This document shows, piece by piece, positions 10,883-63,600 of a DNA stretch of 64,000 nt. Each line of letters opens with the position of its first letter. The stretch's first letter is position 1. Location: contig NC_087391.1 in the NCBI RefSeq assembly GCF_963675165.1, forward strand, positions 3,646,646 through 3,710,645, given 5' to 3'. Below the pieces are notes generated by a model. The model did no database searches. It was not told the origin of the DNA and saw only the letters and a program-made list of their open reading frames with translations. This stretch comes from Halichondria panicea (taxonomy: Eukaryota > Porifera > Demospongiae > Suberitida > Halichondriidae). The translations under genes were made by a program, and so were the position numbers.

Positions 10883-11320
10883 TTATTTGATTGGGTGTCC
10901 ACAGTCGTACTTTCCTCTGACAACTTTCACTCTCACGCCAGGTACGTCTTGAGTACGTCCACCCTCAATGAGGACAACATTGTGCTCTTGCAAAGTGTGC
11001 CCTTCTTTCGGAATAAATGCTGTTAACTCCTTCCCATTTGACAACCTCACTCGACAACACTTTCTTTGGGCAGAGTTTGGCTTCTTTGGCTTCCGAATAA
11101 TTGTTTGTAACACTATTCCCTTCATCTGTGGTCTGCCTGTCAGAGGACCACGGCGTGGCTTCTTCGGGCTGATGGGACCCTTGCGAATGATCTGGTTAAC
11201 AGTGCGACCAACTATCGAGCTTGTATGAACGGGTTGGCATTTCACCTTGACACAAGAAAATATATCTGAGAGGGGAAGATTGGAATAATTATGACAATAG
11301 GGTTTCAAATTGTAAAACAC
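10883..11320 (-). CDS. MRPS12: Mitochondrial small ribosomal subunit protein uS12m
   Basis: A single uninterrupted 145-residue frame. From about residue 40 it is the uS12 core: [70 protein letters not shown] and [20 protein letters not shown]. The KPNSAQRK and [10 protein letters not shown] loops are those that sit at the ribosomal decoding centre. The N-terminal ~38 residues are not ribosomal in character and probably serve as a mitochondrial presequence. A small upstream intron cannot be excluded because the N-terminus is less certain than the core. The protein ends GHPIK. It converges with V-ATPase D and is divergent from the MAGUK gene. Confidence 0.95.
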
Positions 11321-12557
11321 AGATCTATCATCTAGATATAGAGCCTACACAAACTGCCATGAATTAGACGATCGGTGAAAAGTCTTATATTTGAGAACAT
11401 ATCTCACAGAGCCACTGCATGAGACGAGATTCGGACTTGACTGTACTGTACTTAAATTATATAGGCTAAGGCCATGTGCAGAGCTAGCTAGCTAGGGCCT
11501 GGCAGAAGGTCAGAAGGTCATGCAAATAATGGGGGAGGGGCTCAAGTGCAAGTAGATCAAATTGCACAAAGTGCAGTATAGACTCCATTGTATATTAAAC
11601 TACTAGATCTAGTCAAAGTAAAGCAAGCTCTCTTTGAATATGTGCTATTCGTAAGCCAATGCAGTCTGTTTCTTCAGCTTTACCTGCAAGGTAAGCTAGA
11701 CTAGGTAAGCTGGTGTATTGAGTATTCAATGAATGAGCTAGGTCTATAAAATGTTCACTGAATTATTGCCTTTTGATGTTTGATGTAACCACAAGCCTAG
11801 AATATCACAACCTGTAGGTGTTGAGCTCATTATTAAGCCAAAATGTGGTGTCCCTATAGTTTTGAGTCATTTTGTTTCTGAGCTAAATCTACAATACCAA
11901 GACACCAAGACACCATTATTTTGCGGGTGAATAACCTTTGCAACGAGTTACATTTTCTGCTAATTTGACCCTTTGCAATCTAACTATTGCGTTCTCGCAA
12001 GTGTCATACCAGTACCAGTTTAGGTTTTTGCGATTTTTTAGCGATCAACCTTTGCAAAGTTCGTTTTGCTCGCACCCATTTGGTATGCTATTTTGCTTAG
12101 TATCTATTATACGCACCACATATTGTTGCTGCTGGAATCATAGATGCTGAAATATGATCATTGTTTTGAGTATAAAGTGTAACATGATGAAGGGTGTACA
12201 CGAGATTGTGCATCCATTGAGCATTCTTTGCTATGTAGGTTGGCTTTTCAGCAATATAAGCCTCATTACCTCTCCCTACATAGTACATTGGTCATCATAA
12301 CACAAGTCGTATATGTTTGATAAGTACCATGAGAAAGCTAGTGGCGTCAGTGGGGTGGGGAAAATGGGCCCGAATGTCAATAATAAACTAGAATGGTCGA
12401 ATGGACCTCGTCCAACTTACAAGTTGAGTAATATCCATTCTCCAGTGAAATTAGTCCACAATGGATGCCCTTGCCCAATAGAACAGAATCATTTTCCTAT
12501 TAGCTATAGAACATTTCTTTCAATAGCTTTTCTGAATTGTAGCCGTTCTCTTCTATC
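11321..12557. other. Divergent intergenic region between MRPS12 and the MAGUK gene
   Basis: This region should contain promoters for both flanking genes; no TATA box or other clear element was recognised. Bases about 11915-12095 hold a degenerate copy of a dispersed repeat shared with about 21475-21680 and 58699-58845 (see repeat entries). No gene was found. Confidence 0.55.
11915..12095. repeat. Copy of a dispersed 'TTTGCG' MITE family
   Basis: The segment has the phrases TTTGCGGGTGAATAACCTTTGC, then AATCTAACTATTGCGTTCTCGC, GTCATACCAGTACCAGTTTA and GGTTTTTGCGATTTTTTAGC, and ends in a reverse copy of the start (TTTGCAAAGTTCGTTTTGCTCGCACCC). The same phrase order recurs at about 21475-21680 and 58699-58845, so this is an interspersed inverted-repeat element, probably non-coding. 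Confidence 0.55.
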
Positions 12558-15500
12558 ATGGACAAGAATCCTTCCCAGTTAAGGCGACATTTGAGCTTTC
12601 TACGGCTCCAATTAGATCATGTACCAACACAGGAACTATTATTGGCTGTTCGACAATGGATTGAAGTAAGTCTATTATATCAACTGAGTCTTACATGAGA
12701 ATTTATGTTTGCTCTAGGGATGTACTGAAATTGTTTGTGAGGAAAAGACGCTTTGGGAATACTTGAAGGATGGTACAGTCCTCTGCAGGTGATTATTGTA
12801 GTCCTATTGTGGGGGATTTAATGATGGAGAGAATGTAATTGAGATTTTCCTTTATCAGAGCAATCCAAGCCATTCAACCTGGCCTTATTAAGCGAACCAA
12901 CAAAATCAAAAGTCCGTTTGCATACAGGGTGAGTCACTGTGCTGGTATGTAAAGTTAAACTTTACAGTCATGCTAAGCTATTGAAGACTGGGTGTAATAA
13001 TAATTATTATTGAGGGCGTCTCTTATTAGTATGATTGTTCATTTCCTGTATATAAGTGTATCTAGCATGTGTAGATAGTGATGTTTACCAGTAAGCTTTT
13101 TATGGCTGCAATATAAACTTAGTCTCTATTGTGCAAGTCAAGCTAACTCAAAACTGGAGTAGTAGATCTAGGCCTAAACCCTTCAATACAATCTGCTGGC
13201 CAGACTGTTGATTATCTACTAGACTACTACACTAAGTGAGTAAAGTTTTGTGATTATACTGACTAATCTAGCTAGCTAGCTATGATAAAAATGCAGCTTG
13301 AGTAGAGATCCAAACCTACTCTAGACCCCGATCTTGCCAGTGCATTCTTTATCTGCATTTGTGTATGCTGATAGTATATTATACTCTAATTTATTTATTA
13401 CTGCACACGACTTAATTAAATATACAGATCTATCTAGAGCTATGCATTCCTAATACAGTTGTGGCTGGTAGGTGTTTGTGTATATTGTTAGCAACCAAGT
13501 ACCCTGCCTCTGTGTTTGGGTATGCACTGCCAATTTTTCAATCCTGCAAATTGTTTGTATACGGTTACAAATTGTTTTCCTGTACTTGGTCTTGGCAAGT
13601 TTGCTGAATAGATTACACAAAATCGAAATGGGATTTTCTTTACTATTAGGAGAATATTTTGTTCTTTTTGGAAGCTTGTCACAAGCTAGGCTTAAAGGAC
13701 TGTCACCTGTTTACACCAGAAGATTTGTGTGAGGACTACCGGAAAACCTCCAGTAAATCAAAAAGGTATGTTGTGAGTATCATGCACACCCCCCCCCCCC
13801 CACTGCTAATTTGTTCATTTCGTTTATTGTTCATTTTTTTCTTTTGCAGTAACTCTCAGGAGGCAAGGTTAAGAAAGGTAAGTGCTCAACTGCATTGTTT
13901 ATTGTTCAGAAAGCATGCAGCCGCAGCCAGGTAGCATCCCAGACTATGAATAATTGTGTGTTGCGTTCATAGCTAGAATTATGCTTTAGGCTACAAAAGT
14001 GGTTACAAAGGCCCCACCTTGTTTGTATGTTGTCTACAACGTTTGTATACCACCCTCATATAGACAGTAGTGCTCTTCACTTGCTATGTCTTTACACAAT
14101 GTATCTAAGTGACACTTGTTTATGATCAGGTATGTGAGTCACTCTACTACCTTGGGCTCAAGACTAAAGAACTACCAGATTACACTGGACCAACGCTACT
14201 CCCCTTCCCTGGCCAGGTACATTGTGTACACAACCAACCTGATGCAGAGGATGTGTAGCACACTTGACACATACTGTTATCTTAGTGCATTCCCACTTGA
14301 GACGGAATTTATTACCTCATTCCCCATCCTTAATTAGACGATACTATGTACTCAGATGGCCTTTTGAGTAATCACTTGGTATTTAGCACTCAATATTCAC
14401 ATGCTCCATCATTTATTCCAGACTAAAGACAGACGTGTGTGTAAGGGATTCTCATCGACCCAGAGCATACCATCATCTGTGTCACAATCAAGTTACACAA
14501 GAAACAAAGCTCCAAGAGCTATTAGGAAAGTACAGAGTGTTGTTAACCTGATTACTGGGACGAACGGCTCGAATCAAGAGTCTTTTGCTGAGGTTTTTTC
14601 TTTCTTCAACGGAAGAAAGCAGGGTGACACATCAGTGTGCTCACAGCAGTCCCTTTCTTCCCTTGATGAGACAGACCAATCTACGGCTGCTGATACGTCT
14701 AGCTTTCTACTAAACAAAGCCACATCCTTACAACACCTACACACTCACACTTCAGGTGGTAATCCATCACCATTAGATTATAGATCATTTGACTTTCCAT
14801 CTTCGCCGAGCGAGGCCTCTACAGTTGTACACGGAGATCTGGAGCTGTCACAGTCTAGCGAAGGGAGAATGCCTTCCCATTCATTAAATTGTCATAGGTT
14901 TGAGTCGGTGAGCACAACCGCACACTCTCAGCCACATTCTACAGAAGATGATGTGTTTCTGAGCAACCCATTCTCACCAGTTCATCATCTCAGCAACGCA
15001 CCAACTCAACCACGAATTGACCACACCGGTATTATCAATAGTGCCACCAGCAGTCAGGACACTCTAGCTGCCTTCTACGGATCACCAGAAAGAAATGCAA
15101 CGTACGAATTCAGTCTGACACAAAAATCTGAAGATAGCTACCCAAGCTATAGCTTGGACCGCAGAAAGTACGCTCAACGACTGAAAACTGTGGAATCAGA
15201 GGAGTTCTTTACACAAGAAGTAAACAAAGATACATGTGATAGTGACGATACAGCCACCTTGGATACTGTAGCGGCACACATACCTGTAGTTAAAGACTCA
15301 AATCTTGCTGAAACAGAGCCAGTTGCCATACCTGTCACCACTCCCAGTGTTCCCCATCACAGTATACACATTGGGGGAGCAGAGTCACCCTCTTCATTTC
15401 AGGTGAAACATACACATACATTACATGCCACAGTTTGGTTTTAATCATGCATCCATCATTTAGCATAGATCTCTGAATAGACCTTTGCTATAATTATAAG

Positions 15501-18500
15501 CAACTTTCTTATTCAGCACTTACAAGCAAACGTACAAATAATCAGATGCTTGCTAGGTGCTGTAAATTGCACGTAAGAGTTGCATGCATGTCAGTAGTCC
15601 TGTATAGCTCTAGGTGGTGCACTTATTATAATGGTGGGGGGGTTAGCTGTATGTTGTGTATAATTACTGTTACTGTGAGTTAAAAATTATTTTTGTTGTG
15701 TATGTGCAGGATGCTCCTTCTAAAGATCCTGGTGTTCGAGAAGTGTCAGTTAGTCTTCTGCCTGGAGAGGAGCGTTTGGGACTAAATCTGGTCGAGGACT
15801 CGGATGGTACCCTCAGGGTCAAGGCCATTGGACCTGGTTAGTTATACACTACCTTGTGTGTTGAGTTTGCTTTGCATGAGTGACATATTCTACCTTGATA
15901 AATGAAAGGTAAATACTTTCCCAGCTCAATGATACTTCCGTCTTTTTTCAAGCTTTTCGTATAGCGTCCTAGGTCTGCTATTATGAGCAGGATGTGCATG
16001 TTCTGCGTAATGATTCAGAGGAATTGTACGTACATCAAACCCAGTACAAATACCAAATACACCCACAGCATATTTTGAAAATTCATTCAGGCACTGCTGC
16101 ATCACGTGTGGACTTGCAATGTGACGATGAGCTGCTATCGGTGAACAGTACACCGCTTACCCACACACCACTCAACACAGCACTTGTTATCTTGCAAGAG
16201 GTACATGTATGTACTGTACTGCATAATAATATTATTGTATTGAGCAATGCACATTCCAAAGTATGGTATGTGTTACGTGTAGCTGGTTGGCTTCTATTGT
16301 GCCAACAAAATAATGATGTATGAATATTCGATTGTTGCAGGCCATGTTGACCGGGAGATTAATGCTGTGTATTCATCGGAGTGATATGGTTGTGGTCAAA
16401 CAGCGACCCCAACACAAGTTATTGCGACCCCCTGACCTCTTGGATATGTCCAGAGTGACGTCTGATGCTCTACCCCACTCTCTTAACGCCACTACGATCC
16501 GTGTGGAGAGACAGGGAACACCTGATTTTATGAACAGTGTAGTACTAGAGGTGCTGAGCAGTCCTGATGAACCCAATGAAAGCAACCGAGAAATCCAAGT
16601 ACCTATTGAGGCCGAGCTCACTGAAACAAAACCTTCTAAACCCATAACACACAGCAACAAGAATGTCCGACCACTCAGTGCCCCTACAAAGGCTCTAGCC
16701 GCAAGTATCGGCGTCCCTGCCCACAAGTCCAACACCCTACCCAATAAGAGTAACTCTCTCTTCAAAGTAGCCAAAGAACGTCAGACAGTTGAGAGGGAAA
16801 AAAGAACAGCCAATATTCACAGTAATTCTCAGATTCTTCTCAAGTATGCTCAGAATCGGCAGTCCTCACATAGCAGCAGTTCATTGCAGAGAGGCGGTCA
16901 ATCCCCAATGCAACTAGACAAACTATTCGAATCAACTAATAGTCAACATAAGGTTGCTAGAGGAAGTGTGTCCCCCGAGCTCCTTTGTTCCCATCACTCT
17001 AGTTCCTCCATTACCAATGATGATTGCAGCTCCGCTTCAACCCCGCTCAACCTGCGTCACATCAGCATGGATGAGACACGTCTTGCTAGTGTCATACAGA
17101 TGGACAACATTTGGAGACAAGTAGAGAGCGGAGATGATTCCCCAGGTCTTATTGTTCGGCACTCAAACTCAATACATTTCGATGAAGAAGAGGATGAATT
17201 GTTATTGACTACTGTATCTGGGAAAACTGAGCTTTTGCAAGATTCTATGGATAGCAGTTTGTCTCATCCACAAGCCTCGTTATCGCAGCTAGCAATGTCA
17301 CCGACCTCTGCACCCATCACAACTCTCTCTACCCCCACATCCCTCACAATTTCCACACCCCTCACAATATCAACGTCTCTTATAACCTCTAGCCCCCTCA
17401 TCACTTCCAGCCCCCTCACGACTTCCACACCCATTGCTGCCGCTATACAACCCCTCAAAACCTCCACACCCCTCGCAGGCCTCTCACTTATCACCAAATC
17501 AGCACCACTGTTGGACGATATCTCAGTAACTGTGGACGAGATCAGGGAAGATAAGCAAAGGTCTGCTTCTTTCAACAACAACAAAGGTATTTTTTAGGCG
17601 GTGTTGTTGTGTACACATTGCATGAACCGCTTTTACATATTTGTGATGATTGTTCGTTGTTGGTCACTCACTCTCTGCTTGCAGACATTGATTCTCTCCT
17701 GCTTACACTGAAGTCTTTGGCTCCTCATGAAGAGAACACTGATGACCTGAGAGTCTTGGAGAGTATGTTGAAATCACACAACTTCAAGAGGGCTAAAAAG
17801 GTGATTGTCATTGCATGCTCTAGAGCTGCTGATTAATTAACCCTTGGCCACGCCGCGGTAACAGGTTATAGTAGTCAGTCAGTCTGTCTGTCTGTTCTGT
17901 GTATGCTGAGTCTGCTCACATGGTTGCCATAATGCTGTGTTCATACCATAGATAGCCTCAAAATAACAAGTTAAATCAACAAAACTTCGTTATCAAATAA
18001 AAAGCTAAGAAGCTTGAACCTGTGTAGCTAGCTTCAGGCGGCTTTGATTCGAGACCCTTAGACTTAGTGTCTAGTCATGTGCATACGTACTCTATATACC
18101 GTGGAGCCCATCCATGTGAAAATTGTGAAACACCGTCTCTGGTCCTGGCCCCACTAACGCCGAGGGTTCTGCACTTTAGTGCTCTAGTTTGAATAGTTAC
18201 ACCACTTACATGTACTGTGTGACATGTACTGTGTGACATGTACTGTGTAACACTGATACTCATTCCCATACAATGTACATGTACATGTAGGTACATGATG
18301 AGATGCACCAGTTGCTTTCTAAGAGTGGCAGCAAACCTGTTATTGGACGCATTGTACCCACTACACAGATGGTAAGGGTCTCTAAGAGATGTGTGACCTA
18401 TAAGTACTGCATGTATTATCATTTGTTTATGCTTTTTTACAGCTGAGGCAGTCACTACATGGCTCAGAGCATTGTGAAGGAGTGGAAGAACTGAGTACCC

Positions 18501-21500
18501 TTCTCAGAAATTCACACGTTCAAGTAAGTGTAGTTTATTGTGAGAAAGCCCGGAAGCAGCAGCTAATTTGATCACCTTCCCCTTTCAGGCCGTGCTGTTT
18601 TGTCATGACAAAGTGTCCACACGTGACCTCTATGTACCAGAAACAACCTTCCACAAAACTGCCCAAGATCCTGTAGACATTATTCTCAGTAGATCAGTGT
18701 GTCAATTTGACACTGCTCTCCAACCAAACAGCAGTCAGTTGCTGTTCCTGTCTAGAGACGTGCCCAGTGGACGCAAAGAGGGAGCCGTCATTGTTTTCCT
18801 GGAGAGAAGTAACAAGCCTTTGGTAAGGTTGGCCGTACATGGAGAAGCTTATGCAATATAGTAACCCGACAGATCTATATAACCTAGTTTTTTTACATCC
18901 CGAAGAAATAGTATGTGTATCTGTGGTGAAAGTTAGTACTTTCTCTCTAGGGTGTAACTATTTACAAGCAAGAGGACTCAGCTTTCATTGGCACGTTGAT
19001 GAGAGGATTTGATGCGGAAGCAAGCAGTGAGTGTAATTATAGTCACTGTGCAAGTTACTTAGCCAATAGAACGTTCATTTCTCTGTGGCAATGCCTCAAC
19101 TTTAGTGTTAACCACTCTGCTGCAGATGTGTTAAGGGAAGGAGATGAGTTGCTGGAAGTCAATGGAATGCCCATCTGGGACAAGACTACCGACCACATTG
19201 TTACTCTCATGGTGAGTCTTGCCAAAGTGTTTTTAAAACAATAATGATTATGTTGAGAGGAGAATTATCTTGTACACTTACACACTCTGCTTTGTATGAT
19301 CACCTTGCTCTCTAAGTATTGGAGACTGTACGTGTCCTTGTTATGATAGTTATGCACAATAATTAACTTCCATTTCTATAAAGTAATGTATACTTACTTA
19401 CGTGTCATTGTCAATTGTTCAGTCCCCAGGCAGAACAGAGGTAGGGGACATTCTCGTGCTCACCATCATACCCTTGCATGACGACAATGTGGACCTCGAG
19501 TATGAAACTGTAAGTTACACATAAGTACTCAAGAACAACTACGTATATATTTGCAATCGTATTCCAGAAATACATACGTGCCCACTTCAACTACAATGGG
19601 AGGTTGGATGAGGAGATTCCCTGCAAAGCTCTTGGTCTAGCATTCCAGAAAGGTGACATTCTAGAAATCAGCAATCAGGATGACCCCAGCTGGTGGCAGG
19701 TGAGTAGTGGCTATGATTATACAGTACAAACGTGCCTTGAGTAAGTAATGAAAGTGGCATCCCATATGTATTTGTTGATTGACACTAAACTAATTGTGCC
19801 GTTTCTCGTACATATTTGATTCTGATTATAGTTTAGTGTTATGTATATAATCATTGTTCCCATCTGCATTCACGGTTGCTGTAAGCTGTCTATAAAGGAG
19901 CAGTATGCTCCTCAGTCCTTATGTCTGTAGATGTCACTTTTTTAACTATTCTTGTTATTTCCCCAGGCTCGCAAGGTGTTTGATGACGGTGCTGAGTCCT
20001 TACCGGGACTACTTCCCTCTAGACACTTACAACAACAGTAAGTGACTGGTGGAGCAGAGGATTTAGTATGTTATCATGTATCTCTCATCATTTATAGACG
20101 TGAGGCTCTTGTTCGATCATATCCATTCAGTCATGCAGGGACTAAAACTAAGAGAGGTGAACTTGTATAGTACAGTGTGTGTATAGTATGTTTGTCACAA
20201 ACAGTGTTACAGTTACTATAATAATGTTGTTCCCTATTGGACACAGGGCTTGGATCGATCTTCTCCAAGAAGAAGAAAAAGAAAGTCTATTACCAAAACA
20301 CATCAACAAGCAGTAAGCACTATCATTATTCTTTTATACTCTCCTCCTCGTCACTCCTTCTGACTCCCTGTGAAGGCAGTGTTTTAGTATACCCACTATT
20401 TATCTATTCCAGTGATGTACCACTTCTAATTTTACTTTTTGTACAGATAGCGTTGGGGTAGGGGACGAGGTACCTACCTATGAAGAGGTGATCAGATTGG
20501 AGCCTGGTCAGAGCCCGTACAGACCAATAGTACTCATTGGCGCTCCACGAGTGGGCAGAAGAACTCTCATTCGAGAACTGATAAACTCTAATCCAGCCTC
20601 CTTCTCTACAGTTGTTTCCCGTGAGTATCCAACAACATTTATAGTAGTAGTGTGCCAGCTAGGTCAGTATTAATTTATTTGTTTTATACCAGGATTGTTC
20701 CCTTGTGATATGCTTAGGAGTATTTGTACTCTTGTAAACCCGCAAATTCGTGTAAGTAACCAACCCATCACAGATACAAGTCGCAACCCGAGATCTGGTG
20801 AGGCGGAGGGACAAGACTACTTCTTTGTCACGAGAGAGGAGTTTGAGAGTGACATGAATCGAGACAGATTCCTGGAGCATGGAGAGCTCAAGGGGGCATA
20901 CTATGGCACCAGCTTCATGACCATCAAGAGAATCATGGAGTCCTATCAAATACCAATTCTTGATGTGCACCCTCAAGTGAGAATCATGTTTTTTCTACAG
21001 TAGTTACCCCAGCATAATATTGAGGGCAATAGTTTCATTGCTTGGGGCAAGAACATTCACGTACATATAGCTAGGGATCGAGGGAGTGTTCAGTTACTGA
21101 AATTTTAATACCTTTGTTACCGAGTGAAACCTATTTTTGTTTCATTTCTTCAGGCATTAAAGAAACTTCGATACTCTGGACTGCAGCCGTATGTGATTTT
21201 CATCGCTTCACCCAGATTAGAACGTTTGCAGCTCACTCGTCAGATAGTATCAGAGAAAGTGAAGAAGAACATAAGTGGTTCATCGGGTAGACTTGTAGAT
21301 GAGGATTCACTCTACACAGTGAGTTATACATACAGGTATTTTGCTCTATATCATTATAGCTTGTATTAATAATTAGCGCTACGTGCTAGCTACTGTAAGT
21401 TCTTGAGATAGTATATACTCCACATATGCACTCAGACCCACACATTATTTACTAACTATCGTATTATTTACTAGAATGTTTTGTGCGTGAAAAACCTTTG

Positions 21501-22071
21501 CGACTGAGCAAAATCATGACACTATAATTATTATGCTATTTAACTTTGCGGTCTGGCAAAATTCGTAATGTCATACATGCGTGCAAATACATACTGGTAT
21601 AGGTTTTGGCGATTTTTGCTAAGCAATCAACACTCGCAAAACTGCATATATCGATGTTCCCAAAACATTCTATTAATGCAGTATACCGTATAACGGGTAC
21701 ATTTGGCGAATGAGCTCGAGGTAATTCCAACTATCATTAAATAATTAATGCAGCATGGTCGAGACCTCGTGCTGTATATGTACTGGGAGAGTATCAAGCT
21801 AAAACTTAATTTTGGTGACCATCATCTTGATTCCCGAAATATTAATCGCCAAAATTAATAATAATAATTTTTTTCCTTCATCCAGGAACATGAGTTGCGG
21901 CAGATGTTAGAAGAAAGCTTACTAATTGAGAATCAATATGGGCACTATTTTGACTGGGTGATTGTGAACGATGACTTCCAAGTTGCCAGTGACATGTTGA
22001 AGGAGGTAGTTCGGAGAGTGGGGGAAGAGCCTCAATGGATACCAGCACTCTGGAAATACGATAGATACTAG
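12558..22071 (+). CDS. MAGUK scaffold with N-terminal CH-PDZ module: CH-PDZ-L27-L27-PDZ-SH3-guanylate kinase-like
   Basis: About 25 exons. The N-terminus (MDKNPSQLRRHLSFLRLQLD) leads into a calponin-homology domain: LWEYLKDGTVLC, NILFFLEACHKLGLKD, LFTPEDL and ESLYYLGLKTKELPDYTGP, closest in style to LMO7/LIMCH1. After a Ser-rich linker comes PDZ1 (GEERLGLNLVEDSDGTLRV, about 15710-16400). Then a long disordered Ser/Thr/Pro exon (16341-17586). Two L27 motifs follow: DDLRVLESMLKSHNFKRAKKV (17685-18340) and VEELSTLLRNSHVQAVLFCH (about 18443-18620). PDZ2 is KPLGVTIYKQEDSAFIG...LREGDELLEVNG, SH3 is FQKGDILEISNQDDPSWWQA, and the guanylate kinase-like domain is VLIGAPRVGRRTLIREL to WIPALWKYDRY. The last four domains closely follow PALS1/MPP5 (Stardust), which organises the Crumbs polarity complex at the apical membrane. 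The GK P-loop is degenerate, as in MAGUKs, so it should bind partners rather than phosphorylate GMP. Exon phases are continuous across the CH-PDZ/L27 junction. Confidence 0.9.
18209..18250. repeat. Short tandem repeat, 14-bp unit
   Basis: ACATGTACTGTGTG is repeated three times, the last copy imperfect, just upstream of a MAGUK exon at 18291. It lies within the intron. The ACATGTAC motif is very common throughout this window. Confidence 0.7.
21475..21680. repeat. Copy of the dispersed 'TTTGCG' MITE family in a MAGUK intron
   Basis: This intronic segment has ACTAGAATGTTTTGTGCGTG, then TTTAACTTTGCGGTCTGGC, AATGTCATACATGCG, a GGTTTTGGCGATTTTTGC block and AACACTCGCAAAACTGC. The same order is found at 11915-12095 and 58699-58845. 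It is directly followed by TATACCGTATAACGGG (about 21680), which resembles the start of the separate TACCGTAT family. It is noncoding. Confidence 0.5.
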
Positions 22072-22428
22072 ACTTCATGTACATAACAATATAAATGGAC
22101 TGCCAAGAATAATTTTTATTACGAACATTTTTTATCCCATCTTATCATTACCAATTTTTTTATCACCTCATAGTTACTTAACTGTGTACAATCTTCTGTT
22201 GTATAACTATTATTTTCATAAGCACCCAGTCTTAATTATAATTATGATGGGCTGCATTGAATTGTGGCCTAAAATATTATAATTATCTACAGTCATGATA
22301 ATTATAACACAAAGCAAAATTGCCCGTAAATTTCAATTTTTGAAAGGCTTCATTGTAATATCCTCATGAGTGACTGCATGAATGAAATCAAGGTATAAAG
22401 ATCAATATATGGAGTATACTAAAGTTCC
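22072..22428. other. Convergent 3' intergenic region (MAGUK / SEL1L)
   Basis: About 357 bp of AT-rich DNA between two stop codons on opposite strands. It must hold both 3' UTRs and polyadenylation signals. No gene or clear repeat was seen. Confidence 0.6.
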
Positions 22429-25400
22429 CTAGTTGATATTATTTCTCCTCCAAATAAAAACCATTACTAACGTCCCTGTGAGCAAAGAGATGAGGTATAC
22501 ATCCCAGTTTGGGCCAAGCAACAAATTTAGATCACCGAGTGTAGATTGTAGATATAGTATCTGCAATGAATTGAAGAAAAGAATAAGTGCTTCACTTTGT
22601 TTTCAGTAATAATAGTGTACTTACATGTTTGTATGACTCCTGATAGTACATAAAGTTGAGCTTAAACAGTGCCAGTTTCACAGGGAAAATTGCTTCAGCA
22701 GAAGTTTCCGATGCCATGTCATAGAATCGCTTAGCAAGGTGGAAGTCCTAAAGAGCAAAAAACAGGCCATTTAATGCACAATTCATTTCCCTTTACAGCA
22801 TTAAGGCGGGTTAACATTTAGGATAGCAATCATAATGAGACTTTGCAAAATAATATTGTTGACAGCCACACACAATTTTTACACTTTGCATACCTTCTCT
22901 AGTCCAAGTCCTTCCTGGTACATGTAGCCCAAGTTGAACATGGCTTGAGCACAAGTTTGCTTGTCACTGGCCATTCTGTACTGATGAGCTGCCACCTCAT
23001 AGTTCACTGACGTTCCCTGACCGTAGTAGTAGTAATCTCCCAATTTCACTCTTGCTTCAGCATAACCTGAAGTGTGGAATCTCAAATAACTATAACAGTG
23101 CAGATTGAATGGATTGGGGACCATTTAATTATGTGTGTAAATGTTGAAATTTGAAATGGGTAGTCTATGGGTAGTCTGTACCTATTCTAAACCATCAGCC
23201 CTGTTACACTAAAAGCATATATCTCGATCCCAAAGGAATATGTTGTTAATTTGTGAATGTCCCTAGCACTAGGGTACATGTAGGCATGGTGACAACACTA
23301 GATAGTCACCTTGTGCTGCAGCTCTGTTCCAATACAGCAGTGCTCTCTTCAGCGTCTCGTTTTTCTCAACTAGTGCCTGTTCATCTGATAATACATATCA
23401 CAGTGTTTACAATAATAATATTGTGGGAGCATTGTACACACAAACCTTGCTCCAGAATGAATGCCACATTACTCTCAGCCTCTTCTACTCCCAGCTCAGC
23501 AGCAATGAAGAATATCATCAGTGCATCGTCAATGTCACCATTCGTATACAGTTTGTCAGCCTCTGTGAACATTCTTGTCCAATGGCCCCTCTCAGAAACA
23601 GACTTAAACAGCTATAGGGAGTACAAAATAATACATGACACATCAACCTAGAATACACCCCAATCAGTATCAATTTAAAACACTAGTCGCTACAATTACG
23701 AAGCTACCGTCTAATGTATGTACACGTAGCCCCATAGGTAATAGTTCATTTAGTGACTGCATAGTGTACACTACGCATATTCACCTCGACGGCATAATTG
23801 CAGTTTCTCTTAACACCGATCCCTTCAGCATTCATTTCTCCTAAGCTGTACATAGCTCTTAGGTGACCTACAATAATCGACGTTAACATACAGGGAAATA
23901 TTATATGCATGTTAAGAAGGTTAGCTATATAGTTATGTGTCTTTAATTAGCAATGGTGCAGTATACTTGCCGCCATGAGAAGCGAGCTGAAAGTATCTCA
24001 AAGCTTTCCCCTGATCTCTGGGCAATCCAAAACCATCTGCAAGTTCATACGTAGTACACACAGTTACATACACTTTCGAATCAGGGAAAACAAATTATAT
24101 ATTCATGACATTAATTTTGTCACCTGTAGAGTGGAAGACACACTCAAAATAACAATTATTGTGCAACTACATGATAGTACCATTCAATAGACACACAACA
24201 CTCCCACATACTGAAGTTCATGTATCCAATGTAGTACTGTCCTTCGGCCGAGCCTCGATCAAGTGCCTGCTGAAAGTAGTGCAGTGCCTTGGTGTAGCTC
24301 TAAAATGTATACAAGTGAAACACTCACGGCAATTCACAGCATTCAATACTCATACCATTTCAACTCCCATTCCATGCAAATACAGCATTCCCATTCCACT
24401 GAATCCATCTCCATTTCTCTGGAATGGACGTAACACCATACACAGTAACAGCAAGTGACTCGATAATTAGGAATGAAAATGTTACTGACATGATTCATAC
24501 ACACTCTACACATAACGAAGCATGCCTCGTTTTCATCATACACAGTCAAGCACCATACTTGTTTGCACAAACCATATCAATTGCTCTCTGAAAGTAAGTC
24601 TTGGCAGTGGAATAGTCCCTAGGTAGATCTTCACTCCCCTCAGCATACATCTAATGCAGAACTACATATCGTAACAGACTATAGCTGTGACACAATGGGA
24701 AGCCTGACCTTTCCTATCATGGTGAATGCAGCAGGGACTCCGTCTTTGGCAGCTTGTTGGAAAAACTTCAGAGCCATCTGCGTACGTACACAGAACCAAT
24801 ACACTACGTGTCAGAGTGCATTGTTGCAATTGTCATTCCCTCCTATGAACTAGCTACTGGGGTTCTTCTACTCATAGTTTTCCAAAGATACGATTTAGTC
24901 TCAAGGCTGGATATCCTAATAGCGGCTCTTATAGCTTAGACCTAGAAGGCAAAGGATATTTATATTAACCTGTAACAGTGTGTAAACAACCCATATGAGG
25001 TTCTAGCCCAGCTTGTCAATTCTTACGGTACTAACAACTTTTCCAGCATGCATCCGGCAACAAACCTGATAGCTTTTCTGCACACCTCCTGACCCGAGCA
25101 TGTAGAACATGCCAATCATCATCTGCAAGTGTGAATAAGGGAAGTAGTACCAATGGTGCTAACAGAGTAGATTCTGGACACTGTACCTGGGCACCAGCGT
25201 TTCCACTGTCAGCAAAGACTTGATGGTACTGGATCATCTCATCCTCACTCACTGCATAGACACTACCACTCTGCCGAGAAAAAGAATTGCTTTGTACCAC
25301 TTGCATAAGAGATCACTAGACTAGTTAACATTTACTACCAGTCAAAATATAAGCCATATATGTACTAGTATTTTGGCTACAAACGCTTTTAATCAGTTTG

Positions 25401-60600: not shown

Positions 60601-63600
60601 GTGATTAGTAATTTGAGACATTTATATAGATTAACAGCATCGATTACGTATCACACGCTATAGTATATACGTACATGCATGTACCGTATTCTACCGAGAT
60701 TGCTAATTGCATGCTACAAAGCAGCTACAGGTGGGATGGGCTTAATTTCGAAAACAGCCGAATTTAAGCCCATCTAGGTGTTTGCCTCGAAATTACGCCC
60801 ACTCATCAAGTATTTTCTGTCTGCGTTTGAGGCCTGCCAACTCTTAAAATACCGTAGAAACTGGATTATTAGCGCTTACTCGACTATATGCGTATCTTTA
60901 GTTTAAGCGCATGCTCAACTGCAGGCTTTTTATACTCGAATTGAAGCGCTTTTCCAATTATGCGAAGGTTAAAAGTGAAATTTTTATGTCATTGTTTATC
61001 TATGAGCTAGTTTAATCATAGGTTTAATAGCTTGTATATACAGTGCATGATAGCTATATATAGCTGGTGATATACATCTGGAAGGACTCTCTGGGCATGC
61101 TGTTACCCTGTCTGATCATGCATGCTGAGAGAATGTGAGACATGGATGAGGTCCTTTTATTCTAAGTTCCTGATCAATGTGATAATATGAATTTAAATGT
61201 TGTAAATGAACTGTAACATAGTAGTATGATATAGATCCAGTTAGAGTTGCCTGCTTGCCTTGTTTGCTCACTTTCTAGCCAGCTTGCGAGCCAGCTCTCA
61301 TCACAGAGACATCCAATTGCTGGGTGGGGCTCGAAATGACTGCATTATAGGCGCATTCTCGAATATAAGTGTATAGAGCTCTGCTATTGACCCCAAAAGC
61401 GCATGCGCTAATAATCCAGTTTCTACAGTACAATGAATACATCAATATACAACAATGGATAAAGTAACTCGGTATAAAGAAAAGTATACAAGTCAAAATT
61501 CTGCATCAGAAGGTTGTTTGACTTGTCACTGTCAGAGTCTTCAACAAAGATCTCTTATATATACTTGCAATAGGAGCAATTATTTGATCTAGCTATACTC
61601 AGAGCTAACCAGTTTACACAAGAAACTGCTTGACAACTGCTCACTGACAAATGTATCACTTTCTAATGGGGGTATTCTCGAGGTAAATTAGCCTATGCCA
61701 ATGTGTGCCTCCTTGGCTCAGTCGGCAGAGCGTCAGTCTCATAATCTGAAGGTCGTGAGTTCGAGCCTCACAGGGGGCACTTTCTTTTTGTCTCAAATCG
61801 AGGTCTATATACACTCTTGTATCCTGTTATTTTTATACCTTGTTTTGATTTCAAAAGCTGTTTGTGACCTAATTTCAGGAACTTTCACTCTAAAGTGGGG
61901 GTGGGCGTGGGCGTAATCTCGGTAGAGTACGGTATAAATATAGTACTATACATAATTATGTGCGCATATACATGTACATATAGCCGCACGCTTAGGAAAT
62001 GATCATGTATACTGACAGTATACTTTCCTCTAGGATCGCTGGACAGTCACACTTTCATTCTTGGATCGCCAGGAAAGCACTCAGATTGGAGACAGCCTGC
62101 TTTCGGCAGCGTGTTTAACATACCTGGGTCCTTTCACTGTTGTTCTCAGACAAGCACTAATCAACGAGTGGAAACAACTGTGTAGTGAGAATAAGTTGCC
62201 AGCCAGTAAACATTTTAAGTTGAAAGACAACATTGGAGAAGTAGAAGAGGTGCAGTAATTGATGTATTGACGATACATGTAGTACATGCATGTATATACT
62301 TCTCATTTTGAGGGCCAGGCTTGAGATTGCCAATTCAATCAATATTGAATTTTGCATATTGCTATGTCTGAGACGGTTGCCCTAGCTGCCAGTTAGGCTA
62401 TGGCTACCTAATGGCAGAAGGGAATTAGGCAAATTGATCTCATGCAATAATTTATTGTGCGTGTATAAGTAAAGACTATAATTTATACTGTACATGTATA
62501 TACATGTACTTTTCCAGTATTAAAAAACCATGGCAATTATCTTTCTCTGTAGATCCAGCAGTGGCATGTCCATGGCCTCCCAGAGGATCCTCACTCAGTA
62601 GAGAGTGCTCTAATCGCTACCCAGTCCACCTCCACCCCTTTTATCATTGACCCCCAGGGACAAGCATCAAGGTGTGTATATTGGTACAATGGACCCCTGA
62701 ATATCAGAACTATGCCATTAAATGTACGTATACATGTATATATAGAGAAGCCCTGCCTTGCTTTTGAGTGTCGTTGGAAGTAGGCCGCTGGGAGCGCGAT
62801 ATGCATACAGTATAATTATATACAATATAGCCAGTTGTCAATGTCCACAACAAATTACAAACACGATAACACATCCTAGTTAACAGATTTCTTACATCTA
62901 GCACGGATTGCTTTGTTGTGTGGTCGACAGTCTACAATGTACTTTACCATATCTGGTGTAAGCTCATCCATGGGAACATCTGTCTGCTTTGAGTATGGAA
63001 CTATGATAAATCCATTAAATGACCGCAAAGTGTCAAAGTATTTGGCCCAGTCTTCTATAGGCATCAACCTTTCCTGGTTCCTATTCAACCATGTGAGGCT
63101 CAAATGGAATACCTACTGCTTCACAAAATAGGTTCATTATTTCTGAAAGATTACTCTGCAGGTCCGAAGCATCAATTACTGTCGGATGTTCATCAAAGTT
63201 TTCTTGTACATAGTAATAGAGCTCATACAATTCCATTTAACCCTGCATCGGTTTCATTATATGTCTCATATCCAGTGGGCTTCTTTTTATTGACCTTATA
63301 TCGTGCTTTTACCGTGAGTATACAACCTGAGCTGAATCTCTGATGAGAAACACATGGTGAGTATGTGCTAACTCTTTCAGTATTGTCGTGTATTCCAGTG
63401 AGTCTTTGGCTGATAGACACTTGGCCATTTCTTTGGTGAACACCACATCGATGTCTTTATAGCCTTGAAGAAGAGCTGTGTTGACAGCAGTGTATGTTGG
63501 CTCTACTGGGAGGCCTGCCGTGGACGTGGGGCATTGGCTTGACTGGCTTCCGAAACAGTATGGGTACATGTAGAGCTCAAAGAAACATTTTATTCTTGTA

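Follow-up and report, generated by a model that had tools for sequence, protein, structure and literature searches.

According to the available text of Koch (2012; PMC3305314), the LMO7 class is marked by a CH domain of the LMO7/LIMCH1 type, a PDZ domain after the CH and a C-terminal LIM domain. MAGUK architectures, as described in the accessible part of PMC2859873, are strongly conserved inside a given class, although exceptions occur. LMO7 and PALS1 are both named, in separate statements, in the portion of PMC8423818 that could be consulted, and no report of a functional link between them was found in the literature searched. The locus described here, from the sponge Halichondria panicea, brings features of both classes together. 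The window is the whole 64,000-nucleotide stretch of contig NC_087391.1 that was analysed, and the gene of interest occupies positions 12558 to 22071 of it, on the forward strand.

Gene model and domain architecture

The gene was modelled as 25 exons encoding 1586 amino acids (an estimated mass of about 175 kDa) plus a stop codon, with GT-AG boundaries at all 24 introns. Its start ATG, at 12558, is preceded in the same frame by a TAG that begins 18 bp before it, and its stop codon ends at 22071. The spliced frame is open throughout and reads CH - PDZ - linker - L27 - L27 - PDZ - SH3 - GK, the order that the initial annotation had proposed. It had also called for HMM searches, and these, run with Pfam on the protein as two halves, found the CH domain (E=3e-12), the first and second PDZ domains (6.4e-6 and 5.9e-8), SH3_2 (2e-6), the guanylate kinase domain (Guanylate_kin, 5.5e-47) and the L27 pair. 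The L27 pair exceeds the Pfam cut-off of 22 bits if its 126-aa stretch is scanned on its own (30.9 bits), but not in a scan of the entire MAGUK half (20.4 bits), and the first L27 alone, as a 58-aa piece, also falls below the cut-off at 16.1 bits. The best solved structure for this stretch is the PALS1 L27 tandem 3uit (E 5.6e-8). A search of the genome with the L27 family gave two weak matches, both on C6; since the present gene was not among them, this search evidently misses real L27 domains.

With L27 domains preceding a PDZ-SH3-GK core, the C-terminal half has the defining arrangement of the MPP superclass, and it follows the L27-L27-PDZ-SH3-GK order of PALS1/MPP5/Stardust, which is also that of the MPP7/MPP3 class. 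It differs from PALS1 in having CH-PDZ and two linkers in front. The N-terminal half has an LMO7-type CH followed by a PDZ, as in LMO7; unlike LMO7 (CH-PDZ-LIM), the protein ends in a MAGUK half, and no LIM domain was among the Pfam matches to either half. The locus is most probably one protein-coding gene that arose when a duplicate of the LMO7 front half, carrying CH-PDZ but no LIM, came to lie immediately upstream of a PALS1/MPP5-type MPP gene, and it is presumably transcribed as a single mRNA. The initial annotation had regarded this architecture as undescribed in animals, and no description of it was found in the literature searched, a body that leaves out most subscription papers. In the prokaryotic and viral contig collections the orthologue search found none, matching two bacterial MAG contigs and no viral contig. 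A COX1 search aimed at the identity of the organism gave one fragment, which contains two TGA.

The LMO7-type front half

The CH domain (aa 1-160) is encoded by exons 1-6 (12558-12665, 12718-12788, 12859-12928, 13650-13765, 13850-13877 and 14130-14216) and ends in the tail LYYLGLKTKELPDYTGP. In alignment, this tail is the same as in L010, a separate LMO7-like gene of the same genome with CH, PDZ and LIM, and as in hand-entered sequences of human LMO7 and LIMCH1. Exon 7 (14422-15402, aa 161-487) encodes a first linker, Ser/Thr-rich and called from composition only, and has phase 0 at both ends, as does exon 7 of L010. The first PDZ is formed by exons 8 and 9 (15710-15836 and 16091-16200) together with the 5' part of exon 10, from 16341 to about 16430; exon 10 as a whole (16341-17586) carries the last strands of this PDZ and a second linker, and ends in phase 1.

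The first ten exons of the gene correspond to the first ten of L010, with equal intron phases in ten of ten cases, the L010 exon ends having been set by hand with the present gene in view. The L010 model covers exons 1-10 and the LIM exon, and the stretch between them lies outside it. Among the seven introns that fall in alignable parts of the two genes, five occupy the same column and two lie within 3 columns of each other. Introns 8 and 9, in the PDZ, agree in both column and phase, and introns 6 and 7 fall at the same landmarks in both genes. This exon structure, together with the alignment of the tail, supports the LMO7/LIMCH1-like character of the CH domain suggested in the initial annotation. 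Sequence identity to L010 is 54/146 aligned residues in the CH and 22/106 in the PDZ, so that the copy would be either old or fast-evolving.

Structure matches have to be read against the same matches for L010. In the PDB the CH domain matches calponin best, which is no argument against LMO7 kinship because the CH of L010 does so too. Conversely, the first PDZ matches the human LMO7 PDZ weakly (E 0.004); this was dropped as proof of kinship and on its own proves little, because LMO7 is absent among the best 60 of 69 matches to the PDZ of L010. A genome search with the present CH domain returned no second LMO7-like CH among its 13 matches; such a domain was missed and not absent, since queries with a hand-entered LIMCH1 CH and with a LIM domain pointed to C16, which holds an LMO7-like gene. 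The best match of the LIMCH1 CH query was L011 on C2 (E 6.7e-12), where the CH lies in an uninterrupted frame; that frame also has a calponin-type repeat, seen by eye, and L011 was set aside as a presumed relative of calponin/transgelin.

The junction between the two halves

The two halves meet at intron 10 (17587-17684), which is 98 bp long and the ninth shortest of the 24 introns of the gene. Exon 10 ends at 17586 (AAAG|gtattt, phase 1) and exon 11 starts at 17685 (gcttgcag|ACATTG), and the spliced model joins them in frame as FNNNK-DIDSLLLTLK, as had been predicted. In position and in phase (1), the acceptor agrees with the intron that precedes the first L27 of two other MPP genes in this genome, L002 and L001, the match to L001 having been read by eye; introns 13 and 14 likewise correspond to introns of L002, with equal phases. 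An LMO7-type exon 10 ending in phase 1 and an L27 exon starting in phase 1 would keep the frame, and from the structure of L010 and the MPP-type acceptor it appears that an LMO7 copy and an MPP gene met in frame at phase-matched introns.

That the locus consists instead of two neighbouring genes, the first a truncated duplicate of LMO7 that stops at the TAG at 17595-17597 and the second a downstream MPP gene with its own promoter or in an operon with trans-splicing at 17685, is highly unlikely. This reading can draw on the in-frame stop that begins at the ninth base of intron 10 if the intron is retained, on the acceptor, which is good (score 8.6) and could serve trans-splicing, and on the donor, which is weak: it has the second lowest score of the 24 in the gene and lies within the range of the 36 training donors, above only 1 of them. 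Three donors in exon 10 score at least as high as the junction donor, itself included, and all are in phase 1; the other two would end the exon at 16821 and 16965. Against two genes stand the mere 98 bp of free space and the lack of any of nine types of polyadenylation hexamer in 17301-17800, which agree with the earlier remark that little room is left for a promoter or polyadenylation site. No ATG in frame with the L27 was found in the gap or in the frame leading into exon 11, whose single Met (aa 1009) lies inside the first L27, so that a separate MPP protein would have either a broken L27 or a borrowed exon 10.

Exon 10 itself scores as coding up to its end: in each of its quarters the coding frame has a positive score, higher than that of the other frames, and intron 10 scores as non-coding. 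The exon sits in an open frame of 426 codons, whereas the longest frame was 255 codons in 200 first-order Markov sequences modelled on exon 10 and 180 codons in 200 modelled on the gene region (9514 bp each, six frames read). Taken with the open frame and the lack of an L27-frame ATG in the gap, this supports the single gene of the initial annotation.

A single gene could also yield short products alongside the full-length one, with a promoter inside exon 10 giving a PALS1-like isoform, retention of intron 10 giving a CH-PDZ protein, and the fusion itself being minor. Exon 10 contributes ten Met codons to the frame (aa 567-981), retention of intron 10 would end translation after three codons, and the N-terminus of Stardust/PALS1 is known to vary among isoforms. 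An internal start in exon 10 is hypothetical, and an arrangement of this kind seems unlikely.

Class of the MAGUK half and possible function

The first L27 is encoded by exons 11 and 12 (17685-17800 and 18291-18371), the second L27 and the start of the second PDZ by exons 13 and 14 (18443-18523 and 18589-18822), and the remainder of this PDZ by exons 15-17 (18951-19026, 19126-19211 and 19423-19509). Exons 18-21 (19568-19699, 19967-20037, 20098-20156 and 20247-20312) encode the SH3 and hook, identified from Pfam, MPP5 structures and hand-entered human MPP sequences, and exons 22-25 (20447-20620, 20774-20976, 21154-21318 and 21886-22071) the guanylate kinase-like domain and stop. An alternative acceptor for exon 23 at 20693 is open, yet inserts 27 aa into the GK, and was dropped; that at 20774 removes these residues and restores the GK motif 'VSHTSRNPRSGE'.

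PALS1/MPP5 is the likely, though not proven, class for this half, judging from sequence comparison. Its best PDB match is MPP5 by far (245 bits, the next MAGUK scoring 120), and its SH3/hook region carries the MPP5-like stretches LGL.FQKGDIL and QQQREA in alignment. The description as a complete PALS1/Stardust MAGUK in the initial annotation thus stands as far as an MPP MAGUK with two L27 domains; its identity as PALS1 itself, against another member of the MPP3/5/7 group, is unproven, and a second MPP gene on C6, L002, competes for the assignment.

It is possible, if somewhat unlikely, that the fusion is real and its MAGUK half is of MPP3/4/7 type or a lineage-specific MPP, with L002 as the true PALS1/Stardust; in that case the partners of the fusion would be DLG/LIN7 and not Crumbs. 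For PDZ-SH3-GK alone, the present gene scores 285.0 bits to MPP5 and 284.0 to MPP7, a tie, while the score of L002 to MPP5 is higher (302.6 bits); single PDZ structures matched to the second PDZ score alike (MPP7 40.6 bits, PALS1 40.0 bits). A long insertion in the C-terminal part of the GK distinguishes it from MPP5 and resembles the long segment of MPP7. In trees with hand-entered human MPP sequences, L002 joins MPP5 at 85/89 when the present gene is left out; in the AU test L002 with MPP5 is not rejected (p 0.135), and the present gene with MPP3+MPP7 just escapes rejection (p 0.054). Against this, the tree that includes the L27 domains places the present gene with human MPP5 at 89/88, or 95/96 without L002, and its L27 tandem is closer to MPP5 (38.8 bits) than to MPP7 (27.7 bits), whereas that of L002 is closer to MPP7. 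In its L27 domains and SH3 the gene lies nearer to MPP5 than to the MPP7/MPP3 class. In human PALS1 the L27 domains are preceded by an N-terminal region of residues 1-125; this region went undetected in both linkers, where no BLASTP match was better than E 0.27, and it may be too divergent.

With the MAGUK half taken as PALS1-type, it may assemble a polarity or junction complex in which the L27 domains would pair with LIN7 and PATJ-type partners and PDZ-SH3-GK would bind a tail of Crumbs type; the CH-PDZ half might bring LMO7-type junction partners to this scaffold by way of the long flexible linker. The direct link to actin put forward in the initial annotation is not supported. In the available text of PMC6408450, LMO7 lacking the CH domain retains its F-actin-condensing activity and LMO7 lacking the LIM domain loses it, and the present protein has no LIM. 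As LMO7 without residues 1-353 also loses this activity, according to the same text, another part of the N-terminal third may hold an actin site; the linker after the present CH could not be matched to that of LMO7.

If correct, the covalent attachment of an LMO7 front half to a MAGUK of the PALS1 group would amount to a new architecture and a natural experiment. It would also illustrate cleanly how genes can fuse through introns of matching phase: the genome retains an unfused LMO7-like gene along with further MPP genes, and the fusion point is readable to one intron. A shared site of action at the cell cortex for LMO7 and PALS1-type scaffolds would follow as a prediction, testable in ordinary epithelial cells. 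The wider reading, in which the fusion has been conserved in its lineage as a scaffold that joins an LMO7 apical-junction module to the Crumbs/PALS1 scaffold and, in Rosetta-stone fashion, marks LMO7 and PALS1 as partners in animals generally, is doubtful. A Crumbs-tail query, which had no positive control, gave no match in the genome; LIN7-like exons are present at C13:1151469-1152182.

A probable single gene across the junction

The gene studied here, at 12558-22071 on the plus strand, is modelled with 25 exons encoding 1586 amino acids and a stop; the model is open and 24/24 introns are GT-AG. The coordinates and junction of the initial annotation are correct. Exon 23 starts at 20774, and an in-frame TAG begins 18 bp 5' of the ATG. 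The initial annotation had also read both halves of the protein as one gene across the 98-bp gap of intron 10 (17587-17684), and this reading is supported. None of nine kinds of polyadenylation hexamer scanned for occurs in 17301-17800; past the stop, the same scan picks up weaker variants starting at 22088 and an AATAAA at 22453. A separate MPP gene would need its own start; the ATG triplets present in the gap are all out of frame with the L27 exon, whose open frame is 17555-17836, and the sole Met in exon 11 is residue 1009, within the first L27. In each of its quarters exon 10, which holds the last strands of the first PDZ and the linker spliced to L27, has a positive coding score with the coding frame highest; intron 10 scores negative in all three forward frames.

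Intron 10 is not unusual in size, ranking 9th shortest among the gene's 24 introns (52-721 bp), and its acceptor scores well. The donor, however, counts against a single gene, being the second lowest of the gene's 24 and outscoring only one of 36 training donors. Three exon 10 donors, including the junction donor itself, reach at least its score (after 16821, 16965 and 17586), and because all three are phase 1 the fusion frame is independent of the donor chosen. As judged from sequence, the predicted fusion gene has good structural support and arranges known modules in a new domain order.

A Pfam scan of the protein, split into two halves, recovered the claimed order of CH (3e-12), PDZ (6.4e-6), L27, PDZ (5.9e-8), SH3_2 (2e-6) and GK (5.5e-47), with L27 as the weak point. 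Against a cut-off of 22 bits, the L27 pair reached 30.9 when a 126-residue piece was scanned by itself, 20.4 inside the whole MAGUK half, and 16.1 for the first L27 by itself. The best solved structure for this stretch is the PALS1 L27 tandem 3uit (E 5.6e-8), compared with 9.6e-5 for the MPP7 tandem 3lra. Both linkers are Ser/Thr-rich and are probably disordered, given their content of S, P, T, Q, E, K, G and N (55-56%, versus 46% in the MAGUK part).

LMO7 has been defined as CH-PDZ-LIM, and LMO7 proteins with PDZ and CH have been reported from Amphimedon and Mnemiopsis (PMC3305314). The MPP architecture is given as L27-L27-PDZ-SH3-GUK, with one choanoflagellate member carrying an extra C-terminal zinc finger, in PMC2859873, the main text of which does not contain the terms calponin or CH domain. 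Our searches of a library of open-access papers found no description of a CH-PDZ-MAGUK. An orthologue search of prokaryote and virus contig collections returned two bacterial contigs and nothing viral.

The window corresponds to G000:C15:3646646-3710645 in a genome assembly of 131 Mb and 39 contigs. By eye, no second gene was seen among the open frames within 12558-22071, and both flanking neighbours are on the minus strand: an open frame resembling mitochondrial ribosomal protein S12 (10883-11344), divergent and about 1.2 kb off, and frames of SEL1-like repeat character from about 22600 (22592-24094), convergent with the fusion gene. A tRNA-Met gene lies at 61707-61780 (plus strand).

Relation to LMO7 and proposed origin of the fusion

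A LIMCH1 CH query and an LMO7 LIM query matched the same place on contig C16, the former with 53% identity across one exon (E 8e-4) and the latter as a single match (33%, E 0.005). This separate gene, L010 (G000:C16:1253000-1261500), has the canonical LMO7 order of CH (1.5e-16), PDZ (2.6e-15) and LIM (4.6e-5), the LIM lying in a later long exon near the end of a 744-codon open frame. Its model covers exons 1-10 plus the LIM exon, and its exon ends were placed by hand with the window gene known; as placed, they are GT-AG throughout and give a spliced frame free of stops. Exons 1-10 of the two genes correspond, with the same exon-end phase in 10/10. Among seven introns in alignable parts, introns 2, 3, 5, 8 and 9 share a column and introns 1 and 4 lie at most three columns apart, beside gaps; introns 6 and 7 bracket the linker at the same landmarks. 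Another CH gene, L011, has one open frame through the stretch of introns 1-3 and lacks them.

On the MAGUK side, the junction acceptor has the same place and phase in the MPP gene L002, two bases before the first L27-helix codon, and also, by eye, in a second MPP gene, L001. Introns 11, 13 and 14 have same-phase counterparts in L002; intron 12 has none. With these matched phases, a phase-1 LMO7-type exit meets a phase-1 MPP L27 entry. The gene structure on both sides suggests that duplication put a copy of the LMO7 5' half beside an MPP, into which it was then spliced; it would have taken the place of the first MPP exon(s), with loss of the LIM.

L001 (MPP2-like, minus strand) and L002 (MPP5/7 group, plus strand) adjoin at G000:C6:7131500-7147000, a few kb apart and diverging. 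At G000:C16:4699373-4762332, three CH-domain matches of near-equal score, about 30.7 to 30.8 kb apart, suggest that a segment carrying a CH gene has been duplicated in tandem.

Identity of the MAGUK half

The published status of sponge PALS1 varies between papers: one copy of MPP5/Stardust in canonical order is reported from all four sponge classes in PMC5968619 (calponin, CH domain and LMO7 being absent as terms from its main text), Amphimedon lacks MPP5 according to PMC2859873, and the review PMC9729800 calls the status unclear and mentions an Amphimedon 'MPP5/7'.

The initial assignment to a PALS1/Stardust-type MAGUK stands in part. In the PDB, MPP5 scored 245 bits versus 120 for the next MAGUK, but it was also the only MPP represented by a whole PDZ-SH3-GK among the 60 of 73 matches listed. 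In trees including the L27s the window gene joined MPP5 (89/88), rising to 95/96 when L002 was removed. However, against human MPP sequences, PDZ-SH3-GK scores tied at 285.0 for MPP5 and 284.0 for MPP7, and a tree on this part with DLG4 and without the L27s gave the gene no resolved position. L002 is a rival for the same identity, scoring 302.6 with MPP5 and 262.9 with MPP7, and joined MPP5 at 85/89 when the window gene was left out; both genes have long branches. AU tests gave p=0.054 for the window gene with MPP3+MPP7, p=0.115 for it with L002, p=0.135 for L002 with MPP5 and p=0.454 for L002 with MPP3+MPP7. Two motifs, LGL.FQKGDIL in the SH3 and QQQREA, are common to the window gene and MPP5, and a long C-terminal GK segment is shared with MPP7. 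On sequence grounds the MAGUK half is probably MPP5. Elsewhere in the assembly, L001 scored highest with MPP2 and fell in the MPP1/2/6/CASK group, L003 scored highest with DLG4, and L004-L009 were weak matches.

Possible function

PATJ and LIN7 are the L27 partners of PALS1 and the Crumbs tail is its PDZ partner; LIN7-like exons were found in the assembly. Binding of the L27 pair to PATJ and LIN7, and of the PDZ to the Crumbs tail, is described in PMC5968619. LMO7 has been reported at adherens junctions (PMC6408450) and as an afadin interactor (PMC11810119), and by analogy the fusion may bring LMO7 partners and PALS1 partners together on a single chain. The initial suggestion of direct actin anchoring is unsupported, because the F-actin-condensing activity reported for LMO7 survives loss of the CH or of the PDZ and is gone without the LIM or without residues 1-353 (PMC6408450), and the window protein has no LIM; it might still have an N-terminal actin site separate from the CH.

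As a separate observation, a COX1 fragment with two in-frame TGA codons at G000:C1:5280527-5280718 may be mitochondrial DNA copied into the nuclear genome.
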